A DNA stretch of 64,000 bases from Sinorhizobium terangae (GTDB lineage: Bacteria; Pseudomonadota; Alphaproteobacteria; Rhizobiales; Rhizobiaceae). The DNA lies in assembly GCF_009601505.1 (NCBI RefSeq), contig NZ_WITC01000036.1, positions 280,127 through 344,126 on the forward strand, in the 5' to 3' direction. Positions within the stretch are counted from its first letter, which is position 1; every line of letters starts with the position of its first letter. This document shows positions 10,557 to 40,903 of the stretch, one piece after another. Under the pieces are notes generated by a model. The model was not told where the DNA came from, made no database searches, and worked only from the letters and a program-made list of their open reading frames with translations. A program made the position numbers and the translations under genes.

Positions 10557-11857
10557 CCCTCGCCCCCGAGATTGAGGCGAATGGCGACCGAGCGGGCATG
10601 GGCCTCAAGACCTTCCGACCGCGCGAGCGCGATCGCAGCGGGACCGAGCGCGCGCAACTGATCCGCACCGAGCCTGAGGATCGATGTCCGCTTCATGTAG
10701 TCGAGCACGCCGAGGCCGGACGAGAAGCGCGCCGAGCGCGCCGTCGGCAGCACATGGTTCGAGCCGCCGACATAGTCGCCGATGACCTCCGGCGTATGGC
10801 GACCAACGAAGATGGCACCGGCATTGCGGATCTTCGGAACCATCTGATCCGCATCCGCCATAGCCAGTTCCAGGTGCTCGGCGGCGATCCGGTTGGCAAG
10901 GGGTACCGCCTTCTCGAGATCCGGCACCTCGATGATGGCGCCGAAATCGCGCCAGCTTGCAGCCGCGGTTTCGGCACGCGGCAGCGTCTTCAACTGCCGT
11001 TCGACCGCCGCCGCCACCGCATCCCCGAAGGCCGCATCATCGGTGATCAGGATCGCCTGGGCGCCGGCGTCGTGTTCGGCCTGCGCCAGAAGGTCGGCGG
11101 CGATCCAGTCCGGGTCGTTACCATTGTCGGCGATCACCAGCACTTCCGACGGACCGGCAATCATGTCGATGCCGACAGTGCCGAAAACCTGCCGCTTGGC
11201 GGCCGCGACATAGGCGTTGCCCGGACCGACGATCTTGGCCACCGGCGCGATCGTCTCGGTACCATAGGCAAGTGCGGCGACCGCCTGGGCGCCGCCGATA
11301 CGGTAGATTTCCTCGACGCCGGCGAGACGCGCGGCCGCGAGCACGGCCGGGTTGATCGCGCCGCCGCTTGCAGGCACGACCATGACGATGCGCGGCACGC
11401 CGGCAACCTTGGCAGGCAGTGCATTCATGAGAACCGAGCTCGGATAGCTCGCCGTGCCGCCCGGCACATAGAGCCCGACCGCGTCAATCGCCGTCCAGCG
11501 CGAGCCGAGCCCAACGCCCAGTCCATCTTCGTAGATATCGTCCTTCGGCAATTGCCGGCGGTGATGCGCCTCGATCCGGGTTGCGGCGACCTTCAAGGCG
11601 CCGAGAACCTCGGGCTCGACCGCATCGATCGCCGCGTCGATCTCAGCCGCGCCGACGGCCATCGCGGTTGTGGCGAAATCGATGCCGTCGAAGCGAGCGG
11701 AGTACTCCGCCAACGCCGCGTCGCCCCGGGCGCGAACATCGTCGATGATGGCGCGTACGGCGGCATTGACGTCTTCCGAAACTTCCCGCTTGGTTGTCAA
11801 AAACGCGGCAAACGCCTGTTCGAAGCCGCTGTCGAGATAGTTCAGCCTGGTTGCCAA
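10553..11857 (-). CDS. hisD: Histidinol dehydrogenase
   Basis: A 434-aa protein, the full family length. It catalyses the last two steps of histidine synthesis (L-histidinol to L-histidine with two NAD+). Family landmarks are [49 protein letters not shown], the zinc-site region AQAEHD, and [16 protein letters not shown]. It is the first gene of a coupled group with the UPF0262 and phosphatase genes and lies downstream of the DUF2948 gene, apart from other his genes, as in related rhizobia. Confidence 0.97.
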
Positions 11858-11893
11858 TGCGAGATATCCTTCTGGTGATGACCGGTCGGGTGC

Positions 11894-12334
11894 TCAGGCG
11901 CCTTCGGGATGCCGGGGTCTGAACGCGGTTTCCCACGCCCCGCCCGTGTCGGCAAGCTGTACCTCGATACATTCCACATCGAGCACGATCGATGCCTCTC
12001 CGGCGAGCACCAGTTCGATCGCACCTTCCGGCCCCTCGCCCTTCATGGAAAAACGCAGGGCCAGGAGGTCGAGAACCGCTTCTGCATCCCCCCGGTCGAA
12101 ACCGAGCGAGCGCACGGCGACCACGCGCTTGAACGAGAGCACGGCCCGGCGCCGCTCGAAACTGCGCCGCTTGCCGTCGGCGTTTTCCCAGACGAACCGG
12201 TTGATGACCAAGGAAAGCTGACCACGGCGGGCGTCATAGGAAATGCCCGCCACCTTGAAGACTGCGTCCTGCACATGCGCGGAAACGACGCCAAGGTCTT
12301 CCTCGTCGAGTGCCAGCAGCTTCAGAGCATCCAT
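11894..12334 (-). CDS. DUF2948 family protein
   Basis: The product MDALKLLALDEEDLGVVSAHVQDAVFKVAG..., about 146 aa, matches the alphaproteobacterial DUF2948 family as I remember it (D.L..LALD.EDL..VSAH.QD). The ATG at 12334 has AGGA about 9 bp upstream; ATGs at 12343 and 12361 are also in frame. It lies 36 bp upstream of hisD and is probably cotranscribed. Function unknown. Confidence 0.8.
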   Translation of the reverse strand: MDALKLLALDEEDLGVVSAHVQDAVFKVAGISYDARRGQLSLVINRFVWENADGKRRSFERRRAVLSFKRVVAVRSLGFDRGDAEAVLDLLALRFSMKGEGPEGAIELVLAGEASIVLDVECIEVQLADTGGAWETAFRPRHPEGA

Positions 12335-12428
12335 GCGATCCATCCTGTTTTCAGGCGCCATCTTTTTGCGCCACAATCGCAATGGACATAAGGCGTCGCG
12401 CCAGAAACCGCAACGGTTCCGGGCGCAT

Positions 12429-12530
12429 TACAGCGCCGCGCGTCCAATCGGACGCGCAAAGGTCGCTGTAGCACCTTAAATTGCCGCATCATTTTGTCCT
12501 TAAATCGATTCCGATTTAAGGAATCATGCA
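12429..12530 (+). repeat. RIME1-like mosaic element, complete copy
   Basis: Two palindromes, CGCGCGTCCAATCGGACGCG and TTAAATCGATTCCGATTTAA, with the linker GTCGCTGTAGCACCTTAAATTGC and end CATGCA. Its left arms differ from the copy at 7735 by paired changes (TCTTATCAGA versus TCCAATCGGA), so the stem is kept. Confidence 0.85.
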
Positions 12531-12638
12531 AGTTGAGCGGGACGAAATGGCGCGGGACGCGGTTTTACGCGCGATCCGCTCCCGCTTTTCCTGAAATCGA
12601 ACCATCCTGCAATCCTGGACAGGGCGACCCGCCGGGAA

Positions 12639-13931
12639 TTAGTCGCTGACGCGCTCCACGTGCGCGCCGCAGCGCGTAAGTTTCGCTTCCAGGCGCTCGA
12701 AGCCCCGATCGAGGTGGTAGACGCGCGAAACCATGGTTTCGCCCTCGGCCGCAAGCCCGGCAATGACGAGCGAGACAGAGGCACGCAGGTCGGTCGCCAT
12801 CACCGGCGCGCCCTTCAGCCGGCTCACCCCTTCGATCTTCGCCGTCTGGCCCGAAAGCGAGATCTTCGCGCCGAGCCGCGCCAGTTCCTGCACATGCATG
12901 AAACGGTTCTCGAAGATCGTTTCCGTGATGTGGGAAATACCGCTCGACTTGGTCATCAGCCCCATGAACTGGGCCTGCAGGTCGGTCGGGAAGCCAGGGA
13001 AGGGATCGGTGACAATATCGACGGGCTTGATGCCGGCGCCGTTGCGGACGACGCGGATGCCGCTGTTCGTCTGGCTGATCTCTGCGCCCGCCCGCCGGAT
13101 CGCTTCGAGCGCGGTGTCGAGGAGGGCGGCGTCGGTGTCTTCGAGAATGACGTCGCCGCCGGCCATGGCGACCGCCATGGCATAGGTGCCGGTCTCGATG
13201 CGGTCGGGCAGCACGCGATGGCGGGCGCCGGAAAGAGAGCGTACGCCCTCGATCGTGATCGTGCTCGTGCCCTGCCCGCTGATCTTCGCGCCCATGGCAT
13301 TGAGGCACTTGGCGAGATCGACGACCTCCGGCTCGCGGGCGGCATTGCCGAGCACCGTCGTGCCGTTGGCGAGCGTCGCGGCCATCATCAACACATGGGT
13401 GGCGCCGACGGAGACTTTCGGAAAGACGTAGCGCGCACCGATCAGCCCGCCTTCCGGCGCCTTCGCGTTGACGTAGCCGCCGTCGATCTCGATATCGGCG
13501 CCGAGCGCGGTCAGCCCCTCTATGAAGAGATCGACGGGCCTCGTGCCGATGGCGCAGCCGCCCGGCAGCGACACACGCGCCTTGCCTTCGCGGGCGAGCA
13601 GCGGCCCGATGACCCAGAAGCTCGCGCGCATCTTCGATACGAGTTCATAGGGCGCGGTGGTGTCGACGATGTTGCGGCTGGTAAAATGGATCGTGCGGGC
13701 GTAGCTCTCGCCCTGGCGCTCGCGCCGGCCGTTGACGGAAATATCGGCGCCATGATTACCGAGGATGCGGATCAGTTGCTCGACGTCGGCCAGATGCGGA
13801 ACGTTTTCCAGCGTCAGCGTATCGTCGGTGAGCAGCGACGCGATCATCAGCGGCAGGGCCGCATTCTTGGCGCCGGAAATGGGAATGACCCCGTGAAGTT
13901 GATTGCCGCCTACAATCCTGATGCGATCCAT
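12639..13931 (-). CDS. murA: UDP-N-acetylglucosamine 1-carboxyvinyltransferase
   Basis: A 430-aa protein. MurA transfers enolpyruvate from PEP to UDP-GlcNAc, the first committed step of peptidoglycan synthesis, in the cytosol. Key residues are present: Lys22 in SGAKNAALP, the catalytic Cys126 in [19 protein letters not shown] (so the natural fosfomycin target is kept), and the C-terminal [16 protein letters not shown]. It is followed by a RIME1-like element and then the DUF2948-hisD group. Confidence 0.97.
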
Positions 13932-14095
13932 GAGGCCTCTTGAACGGGCTCAAAGCCCGCCTTTCCGTAAATTCAGTGTTGTTTGAAGGCGTCTCTTATT
14001 GGAGATGCCGTGAAATTAGAAGTGCGTTGAAATGCGGGTGACGGGAGACCGCCGAGAATTTCCGAAGAATTCACGACAATCGTCGCCATCTCTGT

Positions 14096-14308
14096 CTAAT
14101 CGTCCGATTCGTCCGTTTTTGCGGCAGGCAATCCGGATGTCTCGTCGGCGGCGCCTGCGCGGCGCGCTCGCATCTGCTGCTTGCGGCGTTGGAGATTGTC
14201 GCGCAAGTTCTTTGCGAGCCGCAATCGCTTGGCGTCTGATTCCACGGTGCGGCCGCCCTTTGCTGCCTTCGGCGGGTGCTGCTTGTCGTCATCGTCCTGC
14301 ATGGCCAA
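14096..14308 (-). CDS. Small highly charged hypothetical protein
   Basis: A 70-aa frame, MAMQDDDDKQHPPKAAKGGR..., with a basic helix KRLRLAKNLRDNLQRRKQQMRARR and an acidic end. The core resembles small conserved alphaproteobacterial proteins encoded beside murA. No membrane segment or Cys. Likely soluble and possibly nucleic-acid binding, judging only from its charge. Confidence 0.7.
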   Translation of the reverse strand: MAMQDDDDKQHPPKAAKGGRTVESDAKRLRLAKNLRDNLQRRKQQMRARRAGAADETSGLPAAKTDESDD

Positions 14309-14459
14309 TGCATTAGCGCAAAATCGGGACCTTCGAAAGCATGAGGCCGATTTCTGATGGATCGGGCCAAAAACTTCGAATTGCGGCTTGCGCTCGCCCC
14401 AAAGCTATGGCAATAGGCGCCTCGCTTGATGCGGCTTGTCACAAACCGGCCGCCGGAAT

Positions 14460-14534
14460 GCTGCTATAGCTCAGGGGTAGAGCACTCCCTTGGTAAGGGA
14501 GAGGCCGAGAGTTCAAATCTCTCTAGCAGCACCA
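14460..14534 (+). tRNA. tRNA-Thr (GGT), island integration site
   Basis: A 75-nt cloverleaf with acceptor GCTGCTA/TAGCAGC, an encoded CCA end, and an anticodon stem CTCCC/GGGAG around TTGGTAA, giving anticodon GGT. The gene is intact. Its 3' end from 14512 is repeated exactly at 35044-35067. Confidence 0.97.
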
Positions 14535-14535
14535 G
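14512..14535 (+). repeat. attL: 24-bp core in the tRNA-Thr 3' end
   Basis: Starts in the T-arm (TTCAAATCTCTC) and runs through TAGCAGCACCAG. It is identical to 35044-35067 over 24 bases and diverges on both sides, which is the signature of tRNA-directed integration by a tyrosine recombinase. Confidence 0.9.
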
Positions 14536-14619
14536 TTTTCCCGAAATGAAATCAACATCTTGCCCATATATCAATGGGTTAGACTTCCGTTTGGTCCATC
14601 ATATTGGTACAGCGGAGCT

Positions 14620-16320
14620 ATGGACGACATGCCCCTTCCCCCTCGCTTGAAGCGCAACGGAAACGTCTACTGGTTTCGGTGCGCGATCCCTCGCGACATT
14701 TCGGCCACCTATCCGAAGACCGAGGAAAAGTTCTCGCTGAAGACGAGCGACTACCAAGAGGCCTTGAAGAAGCTACGGAAAGCCTCTGCCGAAGTCGACG
14801 AGCGGTTCGAAGAACACAGAAGGCGGCTTGCGAAGGAACGCGAGCCGGCCCTCCCTGAATTGACCGAACAGCAGATCAAATACGTCGGCCAAGTCTACTA
14901 CACGCATCTGCTTCAGGAGGACGAGGAGGTACGGGAGAGCGGCTTCGTTGATCGCGACTTTGATGAGGATGCAGAAACCACCGAGGCGCTAGAGGCTGTC
15001 GTTCGTCGCGATTACGCGCGCGGAATGGTCGATGAGTTCATGGTCGGGGAAGCGGAGGAGGTGCTGACCTGGGATGGAGTCGGCCTGAAACTACAGCCTA
15101 CCTCACCAAGTTGGCCGAAGCTGGCCCGCGAACTCCAAGCCGCATGGATAAAGGCTTCAGCAGCCAAACGGCAACGCAACGAGGGGACGCCGGTCGAGAC
15201 CCCTGCCATGCCCGACGCGAAGACGGCGAAGGCTGGCAAACTGTTGTCCGTGATCATTGATGAATGGGTCGCTGAGAAGGGCAGAGGCAACGGGGAGTGG
15301 GTGGCCTCAACCCTGGCCGCGAACAAGCTGTGGGCAGAACGCTTCGTTGAGATGGCCGGAGACAAGCCCATCAACGAATACGTCAAGGCGGATGCGCGGG
15401 AGTTCAAGGTGGCGCTGCTGAAGCTGCCCCCGAACTGGACGAAGAACAAGGAAATCGGTCAATTGCCGATGAAGGACGCGGCAGCTAAGGCTGCTGCCTT
15501 GGGCATTGACCCGATGTCGAGTAAGAACGTGAACAAGGTTCTCGGCTTCCTCCGGGCTCTGTGGAATTGGGCAGTCGCCAATCATGACGATGTGTCGGGC
15601 AACCCCTTCGATGGGCTGAACGTCAAGATCAGCGGCAAGGCGCGTGACGAGCGGCATCCATTTACGACCGAGGAACTCATGAAGCTGTTTCGCTCGCCGC
15701 TCTTCACCGGTTGCCGTAGTGAGCGATACCACAACACTGTCGGTTCCTTTGTGCCCAACGATCAGGGCATCTATTGGGTGCCTCTGCTGGGCCTCTTCAC
15801 GGGCTGCCGATCTGGCGAAATCATCCAGCTTCGTTTGGAAGACATCCGAGCCGATGCCGGGATCACCTATTTCCAAGTGACGGACGACGGGGAAGACCTG
15901 AACCTGAAGACAGCAGCATCTTTCCGCCGTATACCCGTCCACCAAACGCTAATCGATCTGGGTTTCCTGCAGTTCGTGGAGCAGCAGCGCAAGCGTAAAC
16001 ACAAGCGCCTATTTCCCGAAATGCCGAAGGCGGCGGATGGCTACTACTCAACCGCGTATTCGACCAAATTCAAGAACACGCTTAAGGCGATCGGCGTTAA
16101 GCACGAAAAGAACGCTTTCCATAGCTTCCGCCACAGCTTCGAGGACGGCTGCCGCAACAGTCGCATACCTGGGGACTTCATGAATGCGCTTCAGGGTCAC
16201 GCCGAAAAGGGTATGGTTGGGCGCTATGGCAACGGGACGTACGGGCTTCACTTGCTGAACGAGGAAATGCAGAAACTCAGATACGAGGGACTGGACCTGT
16301 CACACCTGAAACGCAATTGA
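14620..16320 (+). CDS. int: Tyrosine recombinase / island integrase
   Basis: About 566 aa from the ATG at 14620 (GGAG upstream; the frame is open from 14560). The N-terminus PLPPRLKRNGNVYWFRCAIP has the DUF6538-like pattern found in many tRNA-targeting integrases. A SAM-like core-binding domain precedes the catalytic domain, which shows the first Arg in GLFTGCRSGEIIQLRLEDI, the HxxR box in AFHSFRHSFEDGC, a GH in LQGHAEKGMVGRYG, and a nearby Tyr. It reads away from the tRNA, 85 bp inside attL, and is the obvious enzyme for integration and excision of the island. Confidence 0.92.
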   Translation: MDDMPLPPRLKRNGNVYWFRCAIPRDISATYPKTEEKFSLKTSDYQEALKKLRKASAEVDERFEEHRRRLAKEREPALPELTEQQIKYVGQVYYTHLLQEDEEVRESGFVDRDFDEDAETTEALEAVVRRDYARGMVDEFMVGEAEEVLTWDGVGLKLQPTSPSWPKLARELQAAWIKASAAKRQRNEGTPVETPAMPDAKTAKAGKLLSVIIDEWVAEKGRGNGEWVASTLAANKLWAERFVEMAGDKPINEYVKADAREFKVALLKLPPNWTKNKEIGQLPMKDAAAKAAALGIDPMSSKNVNKVLGFLRALWNWAVANHDDVSGNPFDGLNVKISGKARDERHPFTTEELMKLFRSPLFTGCRSERYHNTVGSFVPNDQGIYWVPLLGLFTGCRSGEIIQLRLEDIRADAGITYFQVTDDGEDLNLKTAASFRRIPVHQTLIDLGFLQFVEQQRKRKHKRLFPEMPKAADGYYSTAYSTKFKNTLKAIGVKHEKNAFHSFRHSFEDGCRNSRIPGDFMNALQGHAEKGMVGRYGNGTYGLHLLNEEMQKLRYEGLDLSHLKRN

Positions 16321-16349
16321 GATAAGTCATAACGTCCTCGCTAGTGGTA

Positions 16350-16994
16350 AAAATCTGACGCTTGGTGCCCGATGCGGATTACCTGTTCCGACCTCAGAGA
16401 GGCCATTACAGCGTTCGTGATCAATGCCTAGAAGCAGTCGTTTGATTATCCAAGCAGCGGTTCCCCCGCCCACAGGGCTCTTCGGCTCTGTTAGCTCGGG
16501 ATTGACCAGCACCAACAAAGCATGTGGGATGCCATCAAGTCAGCCAATCGCAACCAGCAGCCTTGCTACTACACGCACACCCCTCTGGAGAATGCCTGTG
16601 CCGAAGCCGAGCGGTTGCTCACTAAGGACCCATGGCAGGCCGTGATCTGGTTTGCCGAATACATGAGAGCCGAGAGCAAGCGCGCAGCCGAGCAAGCGCG
16701 ATGGCTCTGATCAGACGTAAGTTGATCTGAGATACGAAGACACCTACCCATTAAGGTTCGACGACGCTTAGCAGTTTCTTGGGACGATTTCCGTCAACCT
16801 GTTGAATTTCTTTCAAAAATCGAGCCTATTTGCCCGGTTTGATCTTGATCGGAAAAGCCCGGCCAGGAGGCCGCGTTACCGCCGAAGCTAATGGGCCAGA
16901 TGAGTGGCAGCTTTCCGGCGAAGCTGACCAGTACCTGCCAGTCCGTTTCCCACCCTAAGCGGGCCTACGGCTCCGGTACCAAGCGTCAGATTTT
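16350..16994. repeat. 17-bp perfect inverted repeat pair, 611 bp apart
   Basis: AAAATCTGACGCTTGGT at 16350-16366 is exactly inverted at 16978-16994, and the flanks CTAG-TGGT / CTAACTGGTGGT are also similar. The pair frames a segment with one weak small frame. It may be the ends of a degenerate small mobile element or recombinase sites. Confidence 0.6.
16522..16710 (+). CDS. Weakly supported 62-aa hypothetical protein
   Basis: MWDAIKSANRNQQPCYYTHT... ending KRAAEQARWL has protein-like amphipathic helices (ENACAEAERLL, QAVIWFAEYMRAES). There is no ribosome binding site, so it may be a fragment of a longer lost gene. It lies inside the 17-bp inverted repeat pair. Confidence 0.3.
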   Translation: MWDAIKSANRNQQPCYYTHTPLENACAEAERLLTKDPWQAVIWFAEYMRAESKRAAEQARWL

Positions 16995-17177
16995 GACCAC
17001 CAGTTAGCCGGGGTCGCACCTGAAGGTCAGTACTCTCGGAGTTGCACGGATCGGATCATAAACGACCCCGGTTATATATCGAGGGCGGACGCAGAATCAG
17101 ATGAGAGCCTGCGTCGAAGCGTTGAAATTGCCACCGATCGACCACGCTGGAGGAAGCCTCCGTGCTGTGATGAGTGT
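16711..17177. other. Intergenic region with inverted repeats
   Basis: No gene is supported. The right 17-bp inverted repeat (16978-16994) is followed by another perfect pair, CCGGGGTCG at 17008-17016 and CGACCCCGG at 17063-17071, about 100 bp beyond the 3' end of the AAA+ gene. Confidence 0.5.
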
Positions 17178-18383
17178 TCACACAGCCTCTGCGCGCTTTG
17201 CCTCGACTATTTGATGGAGGGCTTGAAGCAACTGCCCTTGATTGACCCTCTGGATCAAGCCGCCCGTTCCAATAGACCGCCCAGCGGCGGTGGCATAAGC
17301 TTGTTCGACATCCTCGTCCTTCAATATGGTAGGTGGATTTTTGACCCCGAGATTTGCTCGCTTTATCTCGTGTTTGATGTACACATCGGCCATAGCTCTG
17401 GCTTCTGATTCGCCTGACAACGGTGAGAGAACAGCTTGTGATCCCTCGTCAAATCCCAGGCGTTGGTAGAGAGGATAATTGTAGTTGCGAAGGTTTGCTG
17501 CTCCATTAGGGGTTGACGCAGATAGCATAAGTAGCGAGTAACCTTCGACGCCCCGAACTGCTTCGTCGAAGAAATATCGTAGATCTTGAAGAAACCCCTG
17601 TATTCTAGATGCGCTTACTCCAGATGAAAACAATGTTTCCACCTCATCTAAGCAGAGCATAATACCGTCAACTACATTCTGCTTTCGCGCGAGTGTCAGC
17701 AACTCACTCAGCAAGCGTGTCATCAGCGCCGCACTGCCAAGGCGGGAAAATACACCCAGGTATCGCTTTTCCGTATTGCTCAGCGCTGCACCCGCCAGCC
17801 ATTTTTTCGCGAGATCACGTAGGGGTTCAAACTGCATTCTTCCGTCCCTGTCCGGGGGAACAAAGCCTTTCTGCATCGCGCGGAAGAGCAACTGTAAGAC
17901 TGACCGGAGTTCCACCTGGCGAACGGTCTCAAATGCCGCCTCGTTTTCAACACTTCGGACCACGGCCGTTAGAAGATCGTACTCGCCTTTAATTTTCACA
18001 GCTTCATCCGCTTCGCGGTAGATTTCGCGAACAAGATGGATGGCCGAACTCGCGCCCGCTAACACTTCTACGACGATGAACGGCCGAGGAGCGCTCTCCC
18101 GAAAGTTTTTCATCAAGTATTCGCAATGCCGAAGGAAATGCGTTTTTCCTCCACCCGTGCCGCCCAAAACACCAATCGAACGCCTTTGCGGGTTCTCAAC
18201 AAGGACCTCACGCACGAGTGACACGAATTGGTCGCGCGCGCCGACTTGGTTATAAAGGACTTCTTCGATGATGGTTCGCGCAGCCGGAAAAGGATTCCGC
18301 TTGAAGCCGAACTTCGATAAGAACCGGTCCTCTTCACTAGATTGTTCTGGTACCCGACCCAGCAGCTCTGCGAGTGAGTTCAT
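17178..18383 (-). CDS. AAA+ family ATPase of the PIN/AAA+ operon
   Basis: A 401-aa P-loop ATPase. The N-terminal FGFKRNPFPAARTI resembles the start of ExeA/ORC-like AAA+ proteins. Walker A is GGTGGGKT (residues 74-81), Walker B is IMLCLDEVETLF (Asp246-Glu247), and a sensor-like LLMLSAS with TPNG follows at about 290. The C-terminal region has helical, lid-like sequence. Its ATG overlaps the stop of the PIN gene by 4 bp (ATGA), so the two proteins are probably made in a fixed ratio and form a complex. Such ATPases often regulate or load nucleases in defence systems. I cannot assign it to a named system. Confidence 0.8.
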   Translation of the reverse strand: MNSLAELLGRVPEQSSEEDRFLSKFGFKRNPFPAARTIIEEVLYNQVGARDQFVSLVREVLVENPQRRSIGVLGGTGGGKTHFLRHCEYLMKNFRESAPRPFIVVEVLAGASSAIHLVREIYREADEAVKIKGEYDLLTAVVRSVENEAAFETVRQVELRSVLQLLFRAMQKGFVPPDRDGRMQFEPLRDLAKKWLAGAALSNTEKRYLGVFSRLGSAALMTRLLSELLTLARKQNVVDGIMLCLDEVETLFSSGVSASRIQGFLQDLRYFFDEAVRGVEGYSLLMLSASTPNGAANLRNYNYPLYQRLGFDEGSQAVLSPLSGESEARAMADVYIKHEIKRANLGVKNPPTILKDEDVEQAYATAAGRSIGTGGLIQRVNQGQLLQALHQIVEAKRAEAV

Positions 18384-20389
18384 CGCTTTACCCTTCCGAG
18401 CGTCAGAACAGGCCGACCACCAATCTCTATTCTGTCTAGTGGCACGACTACTTCATCCAAATCTAAGAGCGATCCCGTCAAAATCTTATCGGCTCCCGTC
18501 GGCTTTCCGCCCGCAGCATATTGCAAAGAATACTCTGTCGACAACCGCTTGGCGTAGTCCTGAGCCGCCCGCGCGGCAGCCCATGGTGACATTCTCGTGG
18601 CGCGACAAAACCGTGGCAAAAAGTCCGCCACCTTGGCTATGTTGTCCACCGCCACTTCATCAAATGCGCGGTTGGCGGCTTCAAAATACTCGTCTTGCTC
18701 TGGCCTATTTGATCCATCCAACCATTTATCTCCGTCCGTCCAGGCTTGGCCCAGTAGCGTGTGATACCTTACGAGCCTGACGCTGGCGTCTTGTGCTGCT
18801 TCAGCATTCAATCCGGCTTCAAGAATCTTGTTCACATCTTTCCGGTCAAGACTGCCCTTTTCTTTCAATGCGCTTAGGATCAATTCGTAGGCGTCGTAGT
18901 TTTGAAATTGCTTACTAATTTCGTCGAGGTCGCCAGCCCTGAGGTTTGAATCCAGCGCGTCCAGCTCTTTGCGCGCGAGCAAGACTGCACCATCAAAATC
19001 AATCAGGTTGGCTCGTCTGAGTACTTCATAGGCTCTCGTAGCATTGCCCTTTGCGGGGCGACCCTGATCGGAAAGCCCCTCCAACAACTCATCAAGCGAG
19101 CCTTTCCCAGCGGCATACAGCACGCCCGCCAACTTCATCACGAGTGGCAGTGATGCTTGCGGTACTGCCGCTTTAGACAGCGTGGGCACTTGATCGTTAG
19201 CAACAATCATGGGAGCTTGAATCGGAGCTTCCGCTTGCTTTGCCTCTTCCGTTTGAGTTTCTTGATTCTCGTCGGCCGAAGCCGGTTTTTCTGCAACTTG
19301 TTCCTTGGGCCAAGTCACGTCGAGGAGTTCATCTCGCCAGTCATGCGGCAGCTTCCCCGGCCAATAGCATGCAAGACGAAAGTGCTCACGTTCGCCGCAC
19401 AGACGAACACTACCAAAAGAATGCGTCAGGTCCCACAGAAAACCTCTTAGGGTTGTCCCCACATAGGTTTGGCCCCATGCGTCATAGCGCACATTTGGGA
19501 CTTTCTCCGTGGCTAGTGTGGGCGTAGCAAGACAGAGATTCTCTATTCCTTCAGCGTTGAGAACTCGCGAAAGAAGGACGTCAGAGGTTACGACAACTTG
19601 CTTGGCCCGAGTGCGGGTAGATCGCAAGATCGAATGCACCCCTTCAATCAACAAACGATCCTCAAGGACTTCGCTGTCGTCGGAGTCAAAGCCGTTCCGA
19701 TCCGGCATTTTCATATATCGCAGCAGCGACGGATCAAGCTCGAGCACTTGATAGCGGTGATGATTTCGTTCGAGAAACCCGAGGCCAGCATTCACGAAAG
19801 CACGCGACCGCAGCGCTTGACTTAAATTTGTCTCCTTCTTGTTCCGTGACATAGCCTTGAGCGCGGCCTCGCGAGCCTGAATCTGGGTGATTGACATCAC
19901 AAACGGCAATACCCACAGCGTGCTTCCCCGTAGCACATTCATTAGCCAATGCAGAGTGCCATTGTAGAGGCTGTTGGTGTCTGGAAGGAGGACGATTCCC
20001 TTTGCTTTCTTGAGTTCCTGCAACTGTTCCGCAGTTTTGCCCGACACGATCGGCGCCAGCAATCCCAAACGGGTGGCGCACAAACTCACTGTGTCTGTAA
20101 GCACATGAATATTGCGCCTGTTGCTGAACTCAGCTTTGTTGCCATTCTCCCCTTTCTTCTTCCCCTCTCCTGTTGCCAAGAATTTCTTGTCGAGGGCGAG
20201 CTGAAACTTGAATGACCGTTCAGATTCGTTCTCCGTTGCCGCCACCCCAAGTTCTATGTCCGCGAGTTCGCGCCAATCGTCTGCCTCAAGGTGGGTGGAG
20301 TCAGTATAAGAAATCTTGTACGCGCCAGCGGAAAGCGACTGATAGCGCTCGTCGTCGCCAAACGCGGGTGAAGTAAGTAAATTTTTCAC
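18380..20389 (-). CDS. Large PIN-domain nuclease-like protein of the PIN/AAA+ operon
   Basis: I place the start at the GTG at 20389, which overlaps the TGA of the preceding gene (GTGA); the frame is open to 20452. This gives 669 aa. Residues about 130-285 form a PIN-like domain: Asp137 in IVLLPDTNSLYNG, Glu174 in SITQIQAREAALK, Asp244 in EDRLLIEGVHSIL and Asp270 in QVVVTSDVLLSRVL, the four-acid set of PIN nucleases. A Glu/Gln/Pro-rich linker (about 385-420) leads to a helical C-terminal half with a winged-helix-like segment (ATRAYEVLRRANLIDFDG). The family is unknown to me. Joined to an AAA+ ATPase in an island, it is a plausible RNA- or DNA-cutting effector. Confidence 0.75.
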   Translation of the reverse strand: MKNLLTSPAFGDDERYQSLSAGAYKISYTDSTHLEADDWRELADIELGVAATENESERSFKFQLALDKKFLATGEGKKKGENGNKAEFSNRRNIHVLTDTVSLCATRLGLLAPIVSGKTAEQLQELKKAKGIVLLPDTNSLYNGTLHWLMNVLRGSTLWVLPFVMSITQIQAREAALKAMSRNKKETNLSQALRSRAFVNAGLGFLERNHHRYQVLELDPSLLRYMKMPDRNGFDSDDSEVLEDRLLIEGVHSILRSTRTRAKQVVVTSDVLLSRVLNAEGIENLCLATPTLATEKVPNVRYDAWGQTYVGTTLRGFLWDLTHSFGSVRLCGEREHFRLACYWPGKLPHDWRDELLDVTWPKEQVAEKPASADENQETQTEEAKQAEAPIQAPMIVANDQVPTLSKAAVPQASLPLVMKLAGVLYAAGKGSLDELLEGLSDQGRPAKGNATRAYEVLRRANLIDFDGAVLLARKELDALDSNLRAGDLDEISKQFQNYDAYELILSALKEKGSLDRKDVNKILEAGLNAEAAQDASVRLVRYHTLLGQAWTDGDKWLDGSNRPEQDEYFEAANRAFDEVAVDNIAKVADFLPRFCRATRMSPWAAARAAQDYAKRLSTEYSLQYAAGGKPTGADKILTGSLLDLDEVVVPLDRIEIGGRPVLTLGRVKR

Positions 20390-20769
20390 TCGAAGCGAAT
20401 CCAAACATTGCGAGAGCTGAATGCAGAAAGATGCTCGACCGCAGATTGACAAAGAGTTTTTACGGCATCGGCTAATTTCACTTCGATGGTGACCACTGCA
20501 CTACCTTCCGCCGAGCTTTCAGTTATTTCCAAGGAGGTCCACTGAGCGTGTTCCTCTGGATGATCCCAGTCGACCGATGCCACATTGGCTGCAAATTCGG
20601 CTAACCGGTACCAAGTCCCGACGTCCATGTTTGGCACGAAACTGAGAATTGCTGCAGTGGTTAGCCCAACTCCATCATCTCCGTCCACGCCAAGTGCTCC
20701 CACCCAAATCTCTTCTGAATCAGGCTGCGGATGTGCGTCTGAGATAACTGCCCTAATTGCCACCAGCAT
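20386..20769 (-). CDS. Small first-gene protein of the PIN/AAA+ operon
   Basis: A 127-aa protein beginning MLVAIRAVISDAHPQPDSEE. The ATG at 20769 has a clear AGGGGGAAG ribosome binding site. It looks like a compact alpha/beta protein (IWVGALGVDGDD, GSAVVTIEVKLADAVKTL). Its TGA overlaps the GTG of the PIN gene by 4 bp, so all three genes form one coupled operon. It could be a sensor, inhibitor or adaptor. No family recognised. Confidence 0.7.
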   Translation of the reverse strand: MLVAIRAVISDAHPQPDSEEIWVGALGVDGDDGVGLTTAAILSFVPNMDVGTWYRLAEFAANVASVDWDHPEEHAQWTSLEITESSAEGSAVVTIEVKLADAVKTLCQSAVEHLSAFSSRNVWIRFE

Positions 20770-20931: not shown

Positions 20932-21120
20932 TCAAAAGCCACGACCACACAGTCCAACACCCCTGGCCTTATCGGTGATCTCCCATAAAGTCGCCATCGA
21001 ACGGGCAAGGCGGTCCAGCTTTGTCACCACCAGCGCGTCGCCTATTGTTATCGTTCTTCCGCTTTGTTGTTCGTAGACCAGTGGGGCTCCAGGCGCCCCA
21101 GCCATCGCTTCAATGTCGAG
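20932..21120 (-). pseudogene. Serine recombinase (resolvase) fragment
   Basis: The minus-strand frame contains GDALVVTKLDRLARSMATLWEI, the typical helix of resolvase/invertase proteins (G-D-x-L-V-V-x-K-L-D-R-L-A-R-S), then stops at GVGLCGRGF. The catalytic Ser segment upstream and the C-terminal HTH are missing. It is a decayed remnant between the PIN/AAA+ and restriction operons. Confidence 0.65.
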
Positions 21121-21268
21121 CAATTTCAATGGCTTACTCGGATTTGGTTGCTGCCGGTAGTATACATCAGTAGTACACGCGCGGTGAACAACTGAGGCTT
21201 GCGCTTTATCCTTTACACCCGTCACGTTGGCATTCTATCGTCCGTCTCACTGATTTGGGGGCGCATAC

Positions 21269-22819
21269 GTGGCAAAAGAATTGAATGGTGACCTCAGCTT
21301 CACGGCTGAGCTTTTTAAGGCAGCGGACAAGCTTCGGGGTAATCTGGAGCCCTCGGAATACAAGCATGTCGCGCTCGGCCTCATTTTCCTGAAGTACATC
21401 TCGGATGCCTTCGACGGGCTACATGCCAAGCTCGAAGCGGATGAATACGCGGATGCCGAAGACCCGGAAGAGTATCTCGCCGAGAACGTCTTCTGGGTGC
21501 CGAAGGAGGCACGCTGGAGTTTTCTACAGGCGAACGCCAAGCGTCCGGAGATCGGCAAACTGATCGACGAGGCCATGGAGGCGATCGAAAAGGCGCCCTC
21601 AAACGAGGGGCTGAAGGGCGTGCTACCGAAAAACTACGCCCGCCCGACGCTGAACAAAACGATGCTCGGAGAGCTGATCGACCTTTTCTCCAACATCGGC
21701 ATGCATGACAGCAACGACAGGGCTAAAGACCTGTTGGGTCGCGTCTATGAATATTTCCTCTCGGGCTTTGCCAGTTCGGAAGGCAAACGCGGCGGCGAGT
21801 TCTTCACCCCTCGCTCGGTAGTGCGCACTCTTGTCGAGATACTAGAACCCTACAGGGGCCGCGTCTATGACCCTTGCTGCGGCTCGGGCGGCATGTTCGT
21901 GCAGTCGGAGAAGTTCATCGAGGAGCACGGTGGACGGCGTAACGACATCGCCATCTATGGCCAAGAAATCAACCATACCACATGGCGGCTCGCGAAGATG
22001 AACCTCGCGGTGCAGGGGATCGATGCCGACATCCGCTGGAACAACGAGGGCAGCTTCCACCGCGACGAGTTCCAGGACCTGAAGGCCGATTTCATCCTCG
22101 CCAATCCGCCCTTCAATATTTCCGACTGGGGCGGTGATCGGCTGGCAGACGATGCCCGCTGGAAGTTCGGCACACCTCCTAAGGGCAATGCCAATTTCGG
22201 CTGGCTGCAGCACATCATCCATCATCTTGCACCTCGCGGCACGGCCGGCGTAGTTCTCGCCAACGGCTCGATGTCCTCGCAGCAGTCGGGCGAGGGCGAT
22301 ATTCGCAAGGCGATGATCGAGGCCGATCAGGTTGACTGCATGGTGGCACTGCCGGGGCAGCTCTTCTTCTCGACGCAGATACCCGCCTGCTTGTGGATAC
22401 TGGCCCGCGATAAGAGCGCCAATGGCCATCGCGATCGGCGCGGCGAAATCCTGTTCATCGATGCCCGAAAGCTTGGTTTCATGGTTGACCGTGTGCGTCG
22501 TGAGTTCACGAATGAGGACATCGAGAAGATCGCGGGCGCCTATCACCGTTGGCGGGCCAAGCCCGAGACGCGGGCGCAGAACGGCTGGGCGGACTATCAA
22601 GACGAGCCGGGCTTCTGCAAGTCAGCGACATTGGAGGATGTGCGCTCGCATGGCCACGTTCTGACACCCGGGCGCTACGTCGGAGCGGCTGATGCTGAGG
22701 ACGATGGTGTGCCGTTTGCCGAGAAGTTTGAGGCGCTCAGGGATACGTTATTGGCGCAGTTTGCTGAGGGACGGGCTTTAGAAGAGCGGATTGAAGCTGC
22801 TCTCAGCGGGGTGCAATAA
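21269..22819 (+). CDS. hsdM: Type I restriction-modification methyltransferase subunit
   Basis: A 516-aa protein from a GTG start at 21269. HsdM methylates adenine in the HsdS-chosen target and is needed for the complex. It shows the N-terminal helical HsdM domain ([35 protein letters not shown]), the SAM-binding motif [13 protein letters not shown], and the catalytic NPPF in [15 protein letters not shown], which marks N6-adenine methylation. It overlaps hsdS by one base (TAATG). It is first of five overlapping genes. Confidence 0.96.
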
Positions 22820-24141
22820 TGACCGCAACGACTGGGACGCTTCGCGAACTTTGCGAGCTAATCGTTGATTGCCCCCATTTCACGCCTGAATGGACTGACA
22901 GCGGCTACATTGTCATTCGCAATCAAAACATTCGTGACGGCAAACTTGACCTTAGCCAGCCGAGTTACACGCATCGTGAGGATTTTGAGCGGCGCATCAG
23001 GAGAGCAAAACCCAGAGCCGGTGACATCATCTTCACACGCGAGGCGCCAATGGGTGAAGTCTGCATGGTGCCAGAGGGGCTTGAGTGCTGTGTCGGGCAA
23101 CGGCAAGTGCTGTTGCGCCCCAAGAGCAGCGTAGACGGGAGTTATCTATTTTACGCTCTTCGCTCGCCCTATGTGCGGCATCAAATCTTCTGGAACGAAG
23201 GAACAGGCTCCACCGTAAGCAACGTGCGAATTCCGGTTTTGGAGGCACTAAGAATTCCTCGGCTTGGAGTGGCCGAAAAGCCGATCGGCCAGATGCTCGG
23301 CTCTCTCGACGACAAGATCGAACTCAACCGGAAAATGAACGAAGCCCTGGAGGCGATGGCGCAGGCGATCTTCCGTGACTGGTTTGTGGACTTCGGCCCG
23401 ACGCGCCGCAAGATCGAGGGCGCATCCGATCCCGTTGAGATCATGGGCGGCCTCGTCGCCAATGTCGAGCGGGCGCGGCAACTCGCCGAACGCTTCCCGG
23501 CAAGGTTCGAGGGCAACGGGCTGCCAGAGGGATGGGGCCGGAAACCTCTGCTTGATGAGGCGCAACTCATCTCGGGCGGGACGCCGAAGACGGATCGGGA
23601 GGAGTATTGGGACGGCGGCGTTGCTTGGGCAAGCGCAAAGGATGTCAGTCAGTGCGGGGAAACCTACTTGCTGGCCACTGAGCGGACGATCTCGGAAGCG
23701 GGCCTCCAAAACAGCAGCACTAAGCTGGTACCGCAATTCTCTACCGTCGTGGTCGCCCGAGGAGCGACGACTGGTCGATTGTGCATGTTCGGCGAAACAA
23801 TGGCCATGAACCAGACCTGCTACGCATTGAGCAGTCGTAGCAAGCGCCCCTTTCTCCTCAACAACATGTTCAAAGCGCTGGTCGACAGCCTTGTTCAGGC
23901 CGCGCACGGGTCGGTGTTCGATACAATCACGACTAAGACCTTGGCCACAGCCGACGTTTTGGAGGCGGAACGAGTTGCAGCGGCCTTCGAGGAAATCGCC
24001 ACACCTTTGTATCGGACGATCGAGAACAATGCACGGCAGAGTGTAATCCTCGCCGCGACCCGCGATCTCCTTCTCCCTAAGCTCATGTCCGGCGAAATTC
24101 GTCTCCCAGAAGCTCAAGAGGTCTTGGAGGCGGCGCAGTGA
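22819..24141 (+). CDS. hsdS: Type I restriction specificity subunit
   Basis: A 440-aa protein with the two-TRD layout: TRD1 at about residues 1-150, a central conserved helix (PIGQMLGSLDDKIELNRKMN...QAIFRDWFVDF), TRD2 at about 235-375, and a C-terminal conserved helix ending LLLPKLMSGEIRLP. It sets the bipartite DNA target of the restriction complex. The target cannot be read from sequence. Start overlaps hsdM, and its end overlaps the next gene by 4 bp. Confidence 0.94.
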   Translation: MTATTGTLRELCELIVDCPHFTPEWTDSGYIVIRNQNIRDGKLDLSQPSYTHREDFERRIRRAKPRAGDIIFTREAPMGEVCMVPEGLECCVGQRQVLLRPKSSVDGSYLFYALRSPYVRHQIFWNEGTGSTVSNVRIPVLEALRIPRLGVAEKPIGQMLGSLDDKIELNRKMNEALEAMAQAIFRDWFVDFGPTRRKIEGASDPVEIMGGLVANVERARQLAERFPARFEGNGLPEGWGRKPLLDEAQLISGGTPKTDREEYWDGGVAWASAKDVSQCGETYLLATERTISEAGLQNSSTKLVPQFSTVVVARGATTGRLCMFGETMAMNQTCYALSSRSKRPFLLNNMFKALVDSLVQAAHGSVFDTITTKTLATADVLEAERVAAAFEEIATPLYRTIENNARQSVILAATRDLLLPKLMSGEIRLPEAQEVLEAAQ

Positions 24142-24530
24142 CCACACAGGCAGAATTAATCAAACGGCAGGCAACTGCGAGACTGGACAAGGAGGCTTCG
24201 GTCCATCGGTCCAATCATCAGAACGTCCACGCCCGCCGATATGTCATGCCCAATGCTGCGCTCGGTGGCATCGAGGTCGTGATCATCGTAAAGGGCAGCA
24301 ATCTGCAGCTCTGGTGCGAGGCGAGGGCGATCGATGGTTCCGTGGCGCGTGCGCTTGGCGGGGAGGAGCGGCCGGGCAATGAGACCTACAGTGAGCCAGG
24401 CAAGTATGGCCGCCACTCCGCGCTGAAAACAATGGATCGACTGCATCGCGGAGACGCGTGGCGTTTCGTGCCGAGGACAGTTGGAGACTTGGACCACATC
24501 CTTAACGCAGTGAAGGGCGAGGGGAGATGA
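24138..24530 (+). CDS. Hypothetical protein embedded in the restriction operon (first)
   Basis: A 130-aa protein from a GTG that overlaps the hsdS stop (GTGA), so translation is coupled. It begins MTTQAELIKRQATARLDKEA and has RRYVMPNAALGGIEVVIIVKGSNLQLW in the middle. Basic and soluble, with no recognised domain. Its tight coupling to hsdS suggests a role with the restriction complex, for example control or DNA-end handling (inference). Confidence 0.65.
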   Translation: MTTQAELIKRQATARLDKEASVHRSNHQNVHARRYVMPNAALGGIEVVIIVKGSNLQLWCEARAIDGSVARALGGEERPGNETYSEPGKYGRHSALKTMDRLHRGDAWRFVPRTVGDLDHILNAVKGEGR

Positions 24531-24955
24531 TGGATACCTCCAGCGCCCGCTACGATCTGGCCGATGCGGCTCGATCCGCCCTGTTTCGTCTTGCCGCGGA
24601 ATACAATCAGCGTGCGGCGGGCCGCATTATCCACGTCCTCCAGCGTCGACAAGCTTCCGGCGTCTTTGGTGGTGACTACGACCACAAGAGCCTTTGGGAC
24701 GAGCTTTGCCACGATGCGCAAAATGGTCCGCACTTTGATGACGATCCTTGGGGCGGCATGTTGGATGCCCTCCTCCAAAAAGAAGTCAAGCGACTGACTG
24801 CTGCAGAGTTCGATGCCCTTTGGCTGGCCGCACTCCCAGATGTGGGCGACTTGAGAACAGCTTCTCGCGATGTCGGTGTGATCAAGGAAGAGTTTCGAGC
24901 AGCGCTGCTGCAGCGAGCCGGTGAGCGCAACCTTGAACGATTCGAGGTCTGGTGA
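24527..24955 (+). CDS. Hypothetical protein embedded in the restriction operon (second)
   Basis: About 142 aa. The ATG at 24527 overlaps the previous stop (ATGA; a second ATG is at 24530) and GGGGAG is upstream. The product is acidic and helical ([39 protein letters not shown]). It ends one base into hsdR. No family recognised; an antirestriction or regulatory partner is one possibility. Confidence 0.65.
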
Positions 24956-27900
24956 TGAATGACATCCTCTACACGCAGCCAGTTTCTGAACACAGTACGA
25001 GTGGCTTCAACGAGGGCCTTGTCGAAGAGGCCGTGATTGGTACCTTCAGGGAACTGGGCTACAGCTACGAGCTCGCTGCAGTGATCTCTCCTGACGGCAG
25101 CGCACCCGCCCGAGAAGCCTACGGTGATGTGCTGCTGCTAGCGCGGCTAAGGGCTGCTGCCGAACGGCTGAACCCGATGATCCCGGCAGATGCCCGCGAG
25201 CAGGCCATCCATCAGTTGCTGGTGACTGAAACGCCGTCGCTGGTGGAGGAAAACAGGCGCATCCACAAGCTGATCACCGAGGGTGTCGATGTCGAGTTCG
25301 GCATCGGCGATGGCGAGGTGAAGGGCGACAAGGTTTGGCTGATCGACTTCGACAACCCGGAGAACAACGACTGGCTTGTGACCAACCAGTTCACTGTCGT
25401 CGAGGGCAAGTTTACCCGCCGTCCGGACGTGATGGTCTTCGTCAACGGCCTGCCACTCGGTATCATCGAACTGAAGAACGCAGGCAGCGAGGCGGCGACG
25501 ATCGACCATGCCTTCCAGCAGCTTCAGACCTATAAGGCTCAGGTGCCCTCGCTCTTCCGCACCAATGCCGTGCTTGTTGCCTCCGATGGTATGCTGGCCC
25601 GCATCGGTTCCCTGACGGCGGACGAGGAGCGCTTCATGCCTTGGCGCTCGGTGACGGGCGCGGCTGGCGACTTCACGCCGCACGGCCCTTACGAAATGGA
25701 TACGCTGCTGCGGGGCGTGTTCGACAAGGAACGGTTCCTCGCCCTCATTCGCGACTTCATCGTGTTCGGTGACCAGGGGGCGGGACCGTTCAAGATCATT
25801 GGGGGCTATCACCAGTTCCACGGTGCCCGGAAGGCGATTGCGAGCGCCATCGAGGCAGCGAAGCCGGATGGCAACCGCAAGATCGGCGTGATCTGGCATA
25901 CGCAGGGCTCCGGCAAGAGCTTTCTGATGGCGTTCCTCGGCGGGCTGATCGTTCGTTCTCGGGACCTGGAAAACCCGACGCTGATCGTGCTGACCGACCG
26001 CAACGACCTCGATGACCAGCTCTTCGGCACATTCAACCTTTGCCGCGATCTTATCCGTCAGACGCCCGAGCAGGCCAACAGCCGGGACGATCTGCGACGC
26101 CTGCTCAACCGGGCTTCGGGCGGGGTGATCTTCACCACCGTTCAGAAGTTCACACCCGAGGCGGGCGAGGAGCGGTTCCCGATGCTGACGGACCGGCGCA
26201 ACGTGATCGTCATGGCGGACGAGGCGCACCGAAGCCAGTACGGATTTGACGCCAAGTTGGACAAGGAAACCGGCAGGCGGCGCTATGGATACGCCCACTA
26301 CATCCGCGAGGCTCTGCCGAACGCTTCCTTCATCGGCTTCACCGGAACGCCGATCGAAGCGGAGGACGTCAACACGCCCGCGATCTTCGGCGAGTACATC
26401 GACATCTACGACATCAGCCGGGCGGTTGAGGATAAGGCGACCGTTCCGATCTACTACGAGAGCCGGCTGGCCCGCATCGAACTGAACGAGGACGAGAAGC
26501 CGAAGATCGATGCCGAGATCGAGGCCATGCTCGAAGACGAGACGTTGAGCGAGCAAGAAAAACAGAAGGCCAAGTGGACGACAGTCGAGCGTCTGGTTGG
26601 TTCAGAGAAGCGCCTGTCACAGATCGCAGCCGATCTTGTTGCGCACCTTGAGCATCGCATCGAGGGCATGGACGGCAAGGCGATGGCGGTCTGCATGAGC
26701 CGCCGCATCTGCGTCGACCTCTATAACGAGATCGTTGCACTTCGCCCCGAGTGGCATTCGGACGACGACGACAAGGGGGCGATCAAGATCGTGATGACTG
26801 GCTCGGCTTCCGACCCGCTTGAATGGCAGCCACACATCGGCATCAAGAAGCGGCGCGACGATCTCGCCAAGCGTGCACGCAAGCTCGACGATCCACTGAA
26901 ACTGGTGATCGTGCGCGACATGTGGCTAACCGGCTTCGATGCGCCCTGCATGCACACCATGTACGTCGACAAGCCCATGCACGGCCACGGCCTCATGCAG
27001 GCGATTGCCCGCGTCAACCGCGTCTTCAAGGATAAGCCGGGCGGGCTGATAGTCGACTACATCGGGATCGCCCAGAACCTGAAGAAGGCATTGGCGCAGT
27101 ACTCCCAGTCCGATCGCGACAAGACGGGGATCGATGAAGAGGCAGCGGTTGCCGTTCTTCTGGAGAAGTACGAGATCGTGCGTGCGATGTTCAACGGTCA
27201 CGACTACAGCCTCGGCATTGTGGGCGCCCCGCAACAGCGCTTGAAGGCGTTGGCTGATGGCATCGACTGGATACTGAAGTGGCAAGAGAAGGAGGCGGCC
27301 AAGGTCGAGGGTGTCGAAGCCAAGAAGAAGGCGCACCGCCGCTATCAGGACGCAGTGCTGGAACTGAGCAAGGCCTACGCCTTGGCTTCTGCAAGCGATG
27401 CCGCAGCGGAAATCCGCGATGAGGTCGGCTTCTTCCAGGCGGTGCGTGCCGCGCTCGTGAAGACGACCGCCACCGGCAAGATGTCGGACAAGGCCAAGTC
27501 GCTTGCCGTCGAGCAACTTCTCAATCAGGCTGTCGCCAATGCCGAGATCGTCGACATCCTCAAAGCTGCCGGGCTACAGTCGCCTGACATCTCTGTCCTA
27601 TCGGATGAGTTCCTCGCAGACGTCCAGCGCATGGAGAAGAAGAACCTCGCGCTGGAGGCGCTGAAGAAGCTGCTGAACGGCGAGATCAAGAGCCGCTCAA
27701 AATCCAATGTGGTCCAGTCCAAGGCATTCTCCGCGCGGCTGGAAGAGGCCGTGGCTCGCTACCATGCCAACGCGATCTCCACAGTCGAGATGATCCAGGA
27801 ACTGATCGCGCTGGCCAAGGAGATGCAAGCAGCGGCGGCGAGAGGTGAAGAACTTGGCCTCTCGGAGGAGGAGATCGCCTTCTATGACGCGCTTGCGGCC

Positions 27901-28146
27901 AATGATAGCGCCGTCCAGGCCATGGGGAGCGAACAACTCCGAGTGATCGCCCATGAACTTGTCGAGCAGATGCTCAGATCAGCGACCGTCGACTGGCAGC
28001 ACAAGGCGAGCGCTCGCGCCAAGATGCGTGTTCTCGTGAAGCGCATCCTGAAGAAGTTTGGCTATCCGCCCGATCTGGAGCAGGAGGCGGTTCAGACCGT
28101 GCTGGCTCAGGCGGAGGTGTTGTTGAAGGAGATTGCTTTCCAATGA
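24955..28146 (+). CDS. hsdR: Type I restriction endonuclease and translocase subunit
   Basis: About 1063 aa. An N-terminal PD-(D/E)xK nuclease ([21 protein letters not shown]) is followed by an SF2 translocase with motif [15 protein letters not shown], motif [13 protein letters not shown], motif III FTGTP, and a motif VI region [10 protein letters not shown]. The C-terminal third is helical and binds the MTase core. Start: the ATG at 24955 overlaps the previous stop (TGATG); the GTG at 24952 is also possible. All key residues are present, so the system looks functional. Confidence 0.95.
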
Positions 28147-29559: not shown

Positions 29560-30186
29560 TTAGGACGCGGTCTGACCCGAGACACGTTTCGCCAGTCGAG
29601 CTAAGGTAGACCGTGAGCAGCCCGTGGCAGCAACGATGGTGTTCCAGCTCAGGCCGCTCTCAAGCATCTTGACGATGCCAGCGTTGCGCTCCTCATCTTC
29701 AGGGCGGCCCTTATAAGCTCCTCGGGCCTTAGCCGTAACGATGCCCTGCGCCTGCCGCCTTCTGCGGTCCTCGTAGTCTTTGCGGGCAATGGCTGCCAGC
29801 ATGTCCAGCATCATCCCGTTGATGGCATCGAGCATGCGGCTCTGAATATCATCCTTGCCAGCCGTGGCCATCATCCAAGAGGTTGGCAGGTCGAGTGCAA
29901 CCACCTTCACCCTGCGGCTCTGTATCTCGGTCTTAAGGCGCTCCCAATCGTCAGCGTTCAAGCGGCTGAGGCGGTCTACCTGCTCAACGAGGAGGACATC
30001 GCCGGGGTGGCAGTCGTTCAGAAGACGGAACAGCTCGGGGCGCTTTAGAGAAGCCCCGCTTTCGTTCTCCACGTAGCTGGCAGCGATCTTCAGCCCACGC
30101 TCCTCAGCGAACCTGAATAGGTCGTCTCTGGCACGGTTGGCATCTTGGTCTTTTGTGCTGGCACGAAGGTAAGCGCGGACATGCAT
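29560..30186 (-). CDS. Serine recombinase (resolvase/invertase family)
   Basis: About 208 aa from the ATG at 30186 (AAGGTGG upstream; the frame opens at 30219). The N-terminal catalytic domain begins MHVRAYLRASTKDQDANRAR with the active-site Ser in RAST, then GDVLLVEQVDRLSRL, the conserved R-containing helix. The C-terminus SGLSWNTIVAATGCSRSTLARLAKR is the HTH. Length fits a small resolvase/invertase. Its start region holds six GGTTC/GAACC motifs, which may be its own binding sites. Confidence 0.9.
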   Translation of the reverse strand: MHVRAYLRASTKDQDANRARDDLFRFAEERGLKIAASYVENESGASLKRPELFRLLNDCHPGDVLLVEQVDRLSRLNADDWERLKTEIQSRRVKVVALDLPTSWMMATAGKDDIQSRMLDAINGMMLDMLAAIARKDYEDRRRRQAQGIVTAKARGAYKGRPEDEERNAGIVKMLESGLSWNTIVAATGCSRSTLARLAKRVSGQTAS

Positions 30187-30197
30187 TGAAGCCACCT

Positions 30198-35043: not shown

Positions 35044-35067
35044 TTCAAATCTCTCTAGCAGCACCAG
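35044..35067 (+). repeat. attR: 24-bp copy of the tRNA-Thr 3' end
   Basis: Identical to 14512-14535. The bases before it do not form a tRNA, so this is the displaced 3' end left by integration. Core sequence resumes with the ABC-F gene 157 bp further on. Confidence 0.9.
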
Positions 35068-40894: not shown

Positions 40895-40903
40895 GGGGAC
40901 CAA

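Follow-up and report, generated by a model that had tools for sequence, protein, structure and literature searches.

What is the function of three tightly packed genes, for a small acidic protein, a large protein with a PIN-like motif layout and an AAA+ ATPase, that lie side by side in a genomic island of Sinorhizobium terangae? The cassette in question occupies positions 17178-20769 of a 64,000-nucleotide stretch of contig NZ_WITC01000036.1 (the window, by which we mean this stretch at its full length). Comparison with three further loci identifies it as one conserved three-gene unit, and from its genomic context we infer a role in defence.

One conserved unit of three genes

The cassette and its junctions comprise the following features:

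20386..20769, minus strand: gene 1, small acidic protein, 127 amino acids (aa) from ATG 20769, or 125 aa from GTG 20763
18380..20389, minus strand: gene 2, protein with PIN-like motif layout, 669 aa, GTG start
17178..18383, minus strand: gene 3, predicted AAA+ ATPase, 401 aa, PF10923 BrxC_BrxD above curated cut-off
20386..20389, minus strand: junction of genes 1 and 2, 4-bp overlap GTGA; 4-bp overlap in 3/3 other loci
18380..18383, minus strand: junction of genes 2 and 3, 4-bp overlap ATGA; 4-bp overlap in 3/3 other loci

An earlier note on this DNA, made from the letters alone, had described three minus-strand genes with a 4-bp overlap at either junction, an arrangement that the open reading frames (ORFs) of the window bear out. 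The other loci are L002 (plasmid pT173c of Ensifer canadensis), L003 (Neorhizobium huautlense) and L012 (genome G905, from the same family). The order small protein, PIN-like protein, ATPase is kept together with both overlaps in all four loci; the start codons differ. Because three other loci share the gene order and both 4-bp overlaps, the overlaps are more than a chance feature of one sequence.

For L002, L003 and L012, respectively, identity to the window protein amounts to 54, 51 and 44% (gene 1), 64, 63 and 54% (gene 2) and 75, 73 and 67% (gene 3). When L002 is compared with L003, the closest pair, each of the three genes shows purifying selection, with nonsynonymous and synonymous divergence (dN/dS, NG86) of 0.17/1.47 for gene 1, 0.13/2.11 for gene 2 and 0.08/2.36 for gene 3. 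The 15 other gene-by-pair comparisons add little, as 13 are saturated and yield no dS value and the remaining two have a dS above 2.5. The G+C content of the cassette is 52.7% vs 60.0% for the window.

An AAA+ ATPase with a distant relation to BrxD and SngB

The product of gene 3 is an AAA+ ATPase with BrxD and the Shango protein SngB as distant relatives. The Walker A and B motifs, which the earlier note had read as intact in the 401-aa protein, are indeed present as GGTGGGKT (residues 74-81) and LCLDE (residues 243-247); both motifs are intact in all four ATPases, with K80, T81, D246 and E247 invariant, and G75, inside Walker A, is Ser in L012. The family PF10923 (BrxC_BrxD) is matched by each of the four at E<=0.1, and the window copy (24.6 bits; cut-off 22.2) combines a score above the cut-off with both Walker motifs, the two features by which we recognise a BrxC/BrxD-type AAA+ protein. 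Across PADLOC, Pfam, NCBIfam and PHROGs, gene 3 gave BrxC/BrxD hits and weaker general ATPase hits, including a weak BrxD hit in PADLOC (19.5 bits, E 1e-4) and AAA_22 and ORC-CDC6-like Pfam hits below cut-off. A single comparison with the ATPase from a Shango system that PADLOC confirms showed 30% identity along 125 aa (E 3e-8), and profile comparison with the Shango ATPase gave a probability of 82%. Sequence searches of the PDB with genes 2 and 3 returned chance hits only.

A large protein with a PIN-like motif layout

The gene 2 product is made up of an N-terminal part, a variable linker at about residues 360-400 and a C-terminal half that, by eye, reads like winged-helix modules. Its best-conserved stretch, residues 121-280, holds the PIN-type acids: D137, E174, D244 and D270 are found where the earlier note had located them, and are invariant in 4/4 homologues. 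The layout around them (a strand followed by DTN, a strand then E, EDRLLI and VVVTSD) resembles that of PIN_4 proteins by eye, and the D..E..D..D order with strand signatures, one of the two marks (next to a family or fold match) by which a PIN domain would be recognised, is present in the gene 2 product, as judged by a pattern made after seeing the sequence. This same post hoc pattern occurs in all four cassettes, in 27 of 29 PIN_4 proteins, in 1 of 148 other long ORFs and in 249 of 20,000 shuffles. The control ORFs were taken from stop to stop on both strands of nine loci, L014-L017 included, and the one match among them, a 466-aa ORF of L014, is a chance hit. The PIN_4 set consists of 31 rows (the 30 best plus L038) minus L057 and L065, which were in the wrong frame.

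A small acidic protein

The product of gene 1 is strongly acidic in all four loci, with an isoelectric point (pI) of 4.33 in the window and 4.16-4.39 in its relatives. Since these relatives begin at a position matching GTG 20763, gene 1 may start there rather than at ATG 20769. PADLOC, Pfam, NCBIfam and PHROGs yielded no convincing family for genes 1 and 2, and our guess for gene 1 is a regulator or an inhibitor.

A mobile element with a precise empty site

That the cassette lies in a tRNA island next to a full set of type I restriction genes, as claimed earlier from the letters, is confirmed by a tRNA-Thr gene at 14460-14534 and by hsdM, hsdS and hsdR, identified with PADLOC. The element is composed as follows:

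14460..14534, plus strand: tRNA-Thr(ggt), integration site
14512..14535, plus strand: left attachment core, 24 bp, given by the overlap between the matches to both flanks at the empty site
35044..35067, plus strand: right attachment core, 24 bp
14560..16320, plus strand: tyrosine integrase, matched by PF00589 at 43.7 bits; the true start may be further in
21269..28146, plus strand: type I restriction system of the element (PADLOC)
21269-22819, plus strand: hsdM
22819-24141, plus strand: hsdS
24138-24955, plus strand: pair of small genes flanked by hsdS and hsdR
24952-28146, plus strand: hsdR

The end of the tRNA-Thr gene (14510-14534) recurs at 35042-35066 with one mismatch, a recurrence seen in none of 100 shuffles. 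In G1161, a genome labelled as the same species, the window flanks 10562-14535 and 35044-47094 are joined (L031); their matches share 24 bp and are 99.98% identical, and the element therefore measures about 20.5 kb (14512-35067). This is a precise empty site, and the cassette is absent from that genome, in which the ATPase profile found no copy. Within the element, the tyrosine integrase lies next to the tRNA gene and is accompanied by the cassette, hsdM, hsdS and hsdR, the restriction genes being on the strand opposite to the cassette and outside its operon.

Several other features of the element were observed. The two small genes at 24138-24955 overlap their neighbours by 4 bp and matched no Pfam (E<=0.01) or PADLOC family; they may be accessory to the type I system. 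A resolvase-family fragment lies just upstream of the cassette (20932-21225) and a full-length serine resolvase (Pfam Resolvase) at 29560-30219. Between integrase and cassette, a 32-nt inverted repeat (88%; 16341-16372 and 16972-17003) flanks about 600 bp, a stretch that may be a small remnant of an insertion.

Different settings in the other loci

The cassette is mobile and patchy. In Neorhizobium, it is located between genes for a NikA-like protein and a MobA/VirD2 relaxase on one side and a tyrosine integrase on the other. In the Ensifer plasmid, a gene with a relaxase domain is found upstream, with AbiEi further upstream, and a set annotated SNF2, DUF1156 and DUF499 (L002 18459-28715) follows directly downstream. 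For this set, PADLOC matched the helicase to BrxHI/BrxHII first and to HmaA next, the DUF1156 methylase to HmaB and the DUF499 ATPase weakly to HmaC. Known defence-type genes adjoin the cassette in two of the four loci, the window and Ensifer.

In G905, the cassette is part of an insertion between glyA and nrdR, the matches to which are 5.4 kb apart (L012 7252-12688). The spacing in congeners is about 0.3 kb (G974), 0.13 kb (G1080) and about 6.7 kb (G1029); the contig of G1119 ends inside the site and does not inform the comparison. The G905 insertion consists of the cassette and about 1.4 kb with a listed 393-aa ORF that has no Pfam or PADLOC hit.

A rare cassette

The cassette is rare, the distinct loci found being four, all in one bacterial family. 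A tblastn search with gene 2 matched one of 72,556 plasmid records, that of Ensifer canadensis pT173c (60% identity), and a scan of genome contigs added the Neorhizobium huautlense locus; a search of genome contigs with a single protein gave no further relative. When the ATPase profile was run over 394 Rhizobiaceae genomes, seven matched, three of them strongly (the window's own, G938, which we equate with the N. huautlense locus, and G905). With the gene 2 profile, run over 397 genomes of the order, matches were confined to G938 and the genome of the window. Overlapping sets of 100, 385 and 398 genomes, each including the window's own, returned the window copy only.

The other four ATPase-profile matches are weak (19.4-20.6 bits) and, where examined, of Shango type. 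Listed as L008-L011 (regions L014-L017), they look like other systems and were rejected as cassettes. L015 and L017 have the Shango layout by reading, at L015 6188-12859 and L017 6336-12830, the latter confirmed by PADLOC with SngA, SngB and SngC. The SngA-like protein of these two operons is 992-1045 aa long, vs 528 positions in the PADLOC model.

Comparison with described systems

The earlier note had been unable to match the set to a named system, and this held: no match for the whole three-gene set was found in PADLOC-DB 2023, Pfam, NCBIfam or the open-access literature searched. Likewise, no described system that joins a PIN-like nuclease to a BrxD/SngB-type ATPase was found in that literature or in PADLOC-DB 2023. 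The kind of system, a nuclease together with an ATPase of the ORC/Cdc6 family, is already known.

Shango, a three-gene defence operon, likewise has a BrxD-like AAA+ ATPase, but the cassette has neither a TerB-type SngA nor the SngC helicase, and PADLOC gave no Sng hit for any cassette protein. The BrxD of BREX type 2 is presented as a free-standing AAA+ ATPase of the ORC/Cdc6 group that is linked to the BrxHI helicase and has an uncharacterised role (PMC12839542). The cassette may resemble this pairing in joining a stand-alone ORC/Cdc6-type ATPase to a nucleic-acid enzyme (PMC12839542), except that the partner in the cassette is PIN-like rather than a BrxHI helicase. Among the nearby ORFs read, no PglZ, PglX or BrxC was recognised, and the cassette itself gave only the weak BrxD hit; the window neighbours scanned, a selection of the ORFs, belong to the type I restriction system or encode an integrase and a resolvase. 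SspABCDE offers a further parallel, in which the ORC/Cdc6 ATPase SspC works with the winged-helix recognition protein SspB (PMC10853773), yet PADLOC gave no Ssp family hit for the three cassette proteins.

With regard to gene 2, DS-3 and DS-5 are systems in which a PIN nuclease has been validated as the defence effector (PMC13092281), and it is this effector that the PIN-like protein may share with them. DS-3, however, is one protein and DS-5 a PIN protein with a DUF5830/AcrIF4-like one, and the available text describes no AAA+ partner for either (PMC13092281). (PIN)-GNAT-EVE with AAA_17 combines a PIN protein and an AAA+ ATPase in an operon (PMC7641849); it was rejected, no GNAT, EVE, ASCH or AAA_17 hit being found in the cassette. 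Menshen, which is built of DUF262 and OLD-type proteins (PMC10952713), was rejected as well.

A proposed role in defence and its rivals

Our favoured reading, on which we are about evenly divided, is that the cassette is a self-contained mobile three-protein defence system of soil bacteria, probably directed against viruses, in which an ORC/Cdc6-type ATPase would control a nuclease and the acidic protein would regulate it. This is supported by the shared gene order and overlaps in four loci, the purifying selection, the BrxC_BrxD family match and the likeness to the Shango ATPase. Further support comes from the element boundaries and the empty site, the type I, AbiEi and HmaA/HmaB-like neighbours, the position amid relaxase and integrase genes in Neorhizobium and within the glyA-nrdR insertion of G905, and the lower G+C content, as well as from the invariant PIN-type acids and the analogues BrxD-BrxHI, DS-3 and DS-5.

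In such a system, protein 2 would be a PIN-like nuclease that depends on metal and binds DNA through winged-helix modules, and protein 3 would assemble on nucleic acid and spend ATP to place or unleash the nuclease, as ORC/Cdc6-type ATPases may do. Protein 1 might restrain the nuclease or sense the trigger. Upon detection of foreign DNA or of its replication, the ATPase would license the nuclease, which would then either cut the foreign DNA or cut RNA and stop the cell. A bolder version, which we offer tentatively and consider rather doubtful, is an undescribed immune complex whose ORC/Cdc6-type AAA+ assembly would load a large PIN-winged-helix nuclease on invading DNA or transcripts, with the acidic protein as regulator.

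A number of results weigh against defence by a PIN nuclease. Of the earlier claim that gene 2 encodes such a nuclease, the four acids stood and the motif layout fits; the fold was confirmed neither by Pfam nor by profile comparison nor by structure models. None of the four gene 2 homologues matched the Pfam PIN models at E<=5. In hhalign comparisons with the 29 PIN_4 proteins, 76 of 200 shuffles scored equal or better and the reversed control was as high, the effective number of sequences (Neff) of the query being 1.3. Against five single PIN_12/PIN_4 proteins, drawn from seven loci with L035 and L037 left out, the probability was at most 0.5%, below the best of 20 shuffles each. Structure models built from a two-sequence alignment had a mean predicted local distance difference test score (pLDDT) of 32.5 for the full-length protein and 40.3 for the PIN region; Foldseek with the latter model gave no match at E<=0.001, and none of the 50 rows listed was a PIN protein, which is not meaningful at that pLDDT. 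Because the alignments are too shallow, these tests cannot exclude a PIN domain.

The context also provides points of this kind. Among the adjoining ORFs of L003 (five) and L012 (one), PADLOC found no known defence gene; its sole hit there, a weak one at 18.7 bits to the candidate PDC-M03A, is a HipA-like gene about 3.7 kb off. This gene (L003 16843-18204; Pfam HipA_C and Couple_hipA) lies past the integrase of the Neorhizobium element. The glyA-nrdR site of G1029 (L053 664-7336) carries genes that read as metabolic. Neither gene 2 nor gene 3 matched any of 50,697 phage records by tblastn, and three scans of viral contigs found no relative of the cassette. Finally, no enrichment in defence islands can be computed, since there are only four loci, all from one family.

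The rival that survives best, although we judge it improbable, is a module of the toxin-antitoxin or addiction type that ensures retention of the element, with gene 1 as antitoxin, the PIN-like protein as toxin and the ATPase as an accessory that releases or recycles the toxin. A small gene that precedes and overlaps the toxin gene is the usual order in toxin-antitoxin modules, and in all four loci a small acidic gene lies directly upstream of the PIN-like gene and overlaps it; furthermore, the cassette is carried on integrative elements. VapC toxins are, however, far smaller than the 669-aa gene 2 product, which has other conserved parts besides the PIN-like region. Gene 1 matched no antitoxin family, and VapBC modules are not known to include an AAA+ partner such as the 401-aa protein. 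This explanation differs from defence mainly in the role of gene 1, and the two could hold together, because toxin-antitoxin modules can also defend.

A role in maintenance or transfer of the element (replication initiation, target selection or partition), with an ORC/Cdc6/TniB-like ATPase and a DNA-nicking partner, appears unlikely. The AAA_22 and ORC-CDC6-like hits would fit it, as would the fact that, in two of the four loci, the cassette has relaxase genes nearby. By eye, however, the ORF lists of the window and L012 place no relaxase beside the cassette, which is therefore separable from transfer genes, and no inverted repeats bracket it in the window, L003 or L012, the three loci searched. 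On this last result, a transposon was rejected.

Less probable still is an accessory module of the adjoining restriction or modification systems, acting as a backup effector for the type I or HmaB-like system: modification-based systems adjoin the cassette in two of the four loci, and BREX loci are reported to include PIN RNases as accessory effectors (PMC12839542), but the other two loci revealed no such system next to the cassette, and the restriction genes of the window are, as described above, on the opposite strand and outside the cassette operon.

Possible meaning for ATPase-based immunity

Should the defence reading fail, the cassette would be a rarely encountered accessory module of mobile elements in rhizobia. 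If it is true, a PIN-like nuclease and a BrxD/SngB-type ATPase would constitute a new effector pairing among the systems built around ORC/Cdc6 ATPases, and the cassette would provide a three-gene case in which to study the unexplained role of BrxD-like ATPases. It is small enough to be transferred as a whole into a laboratory host.

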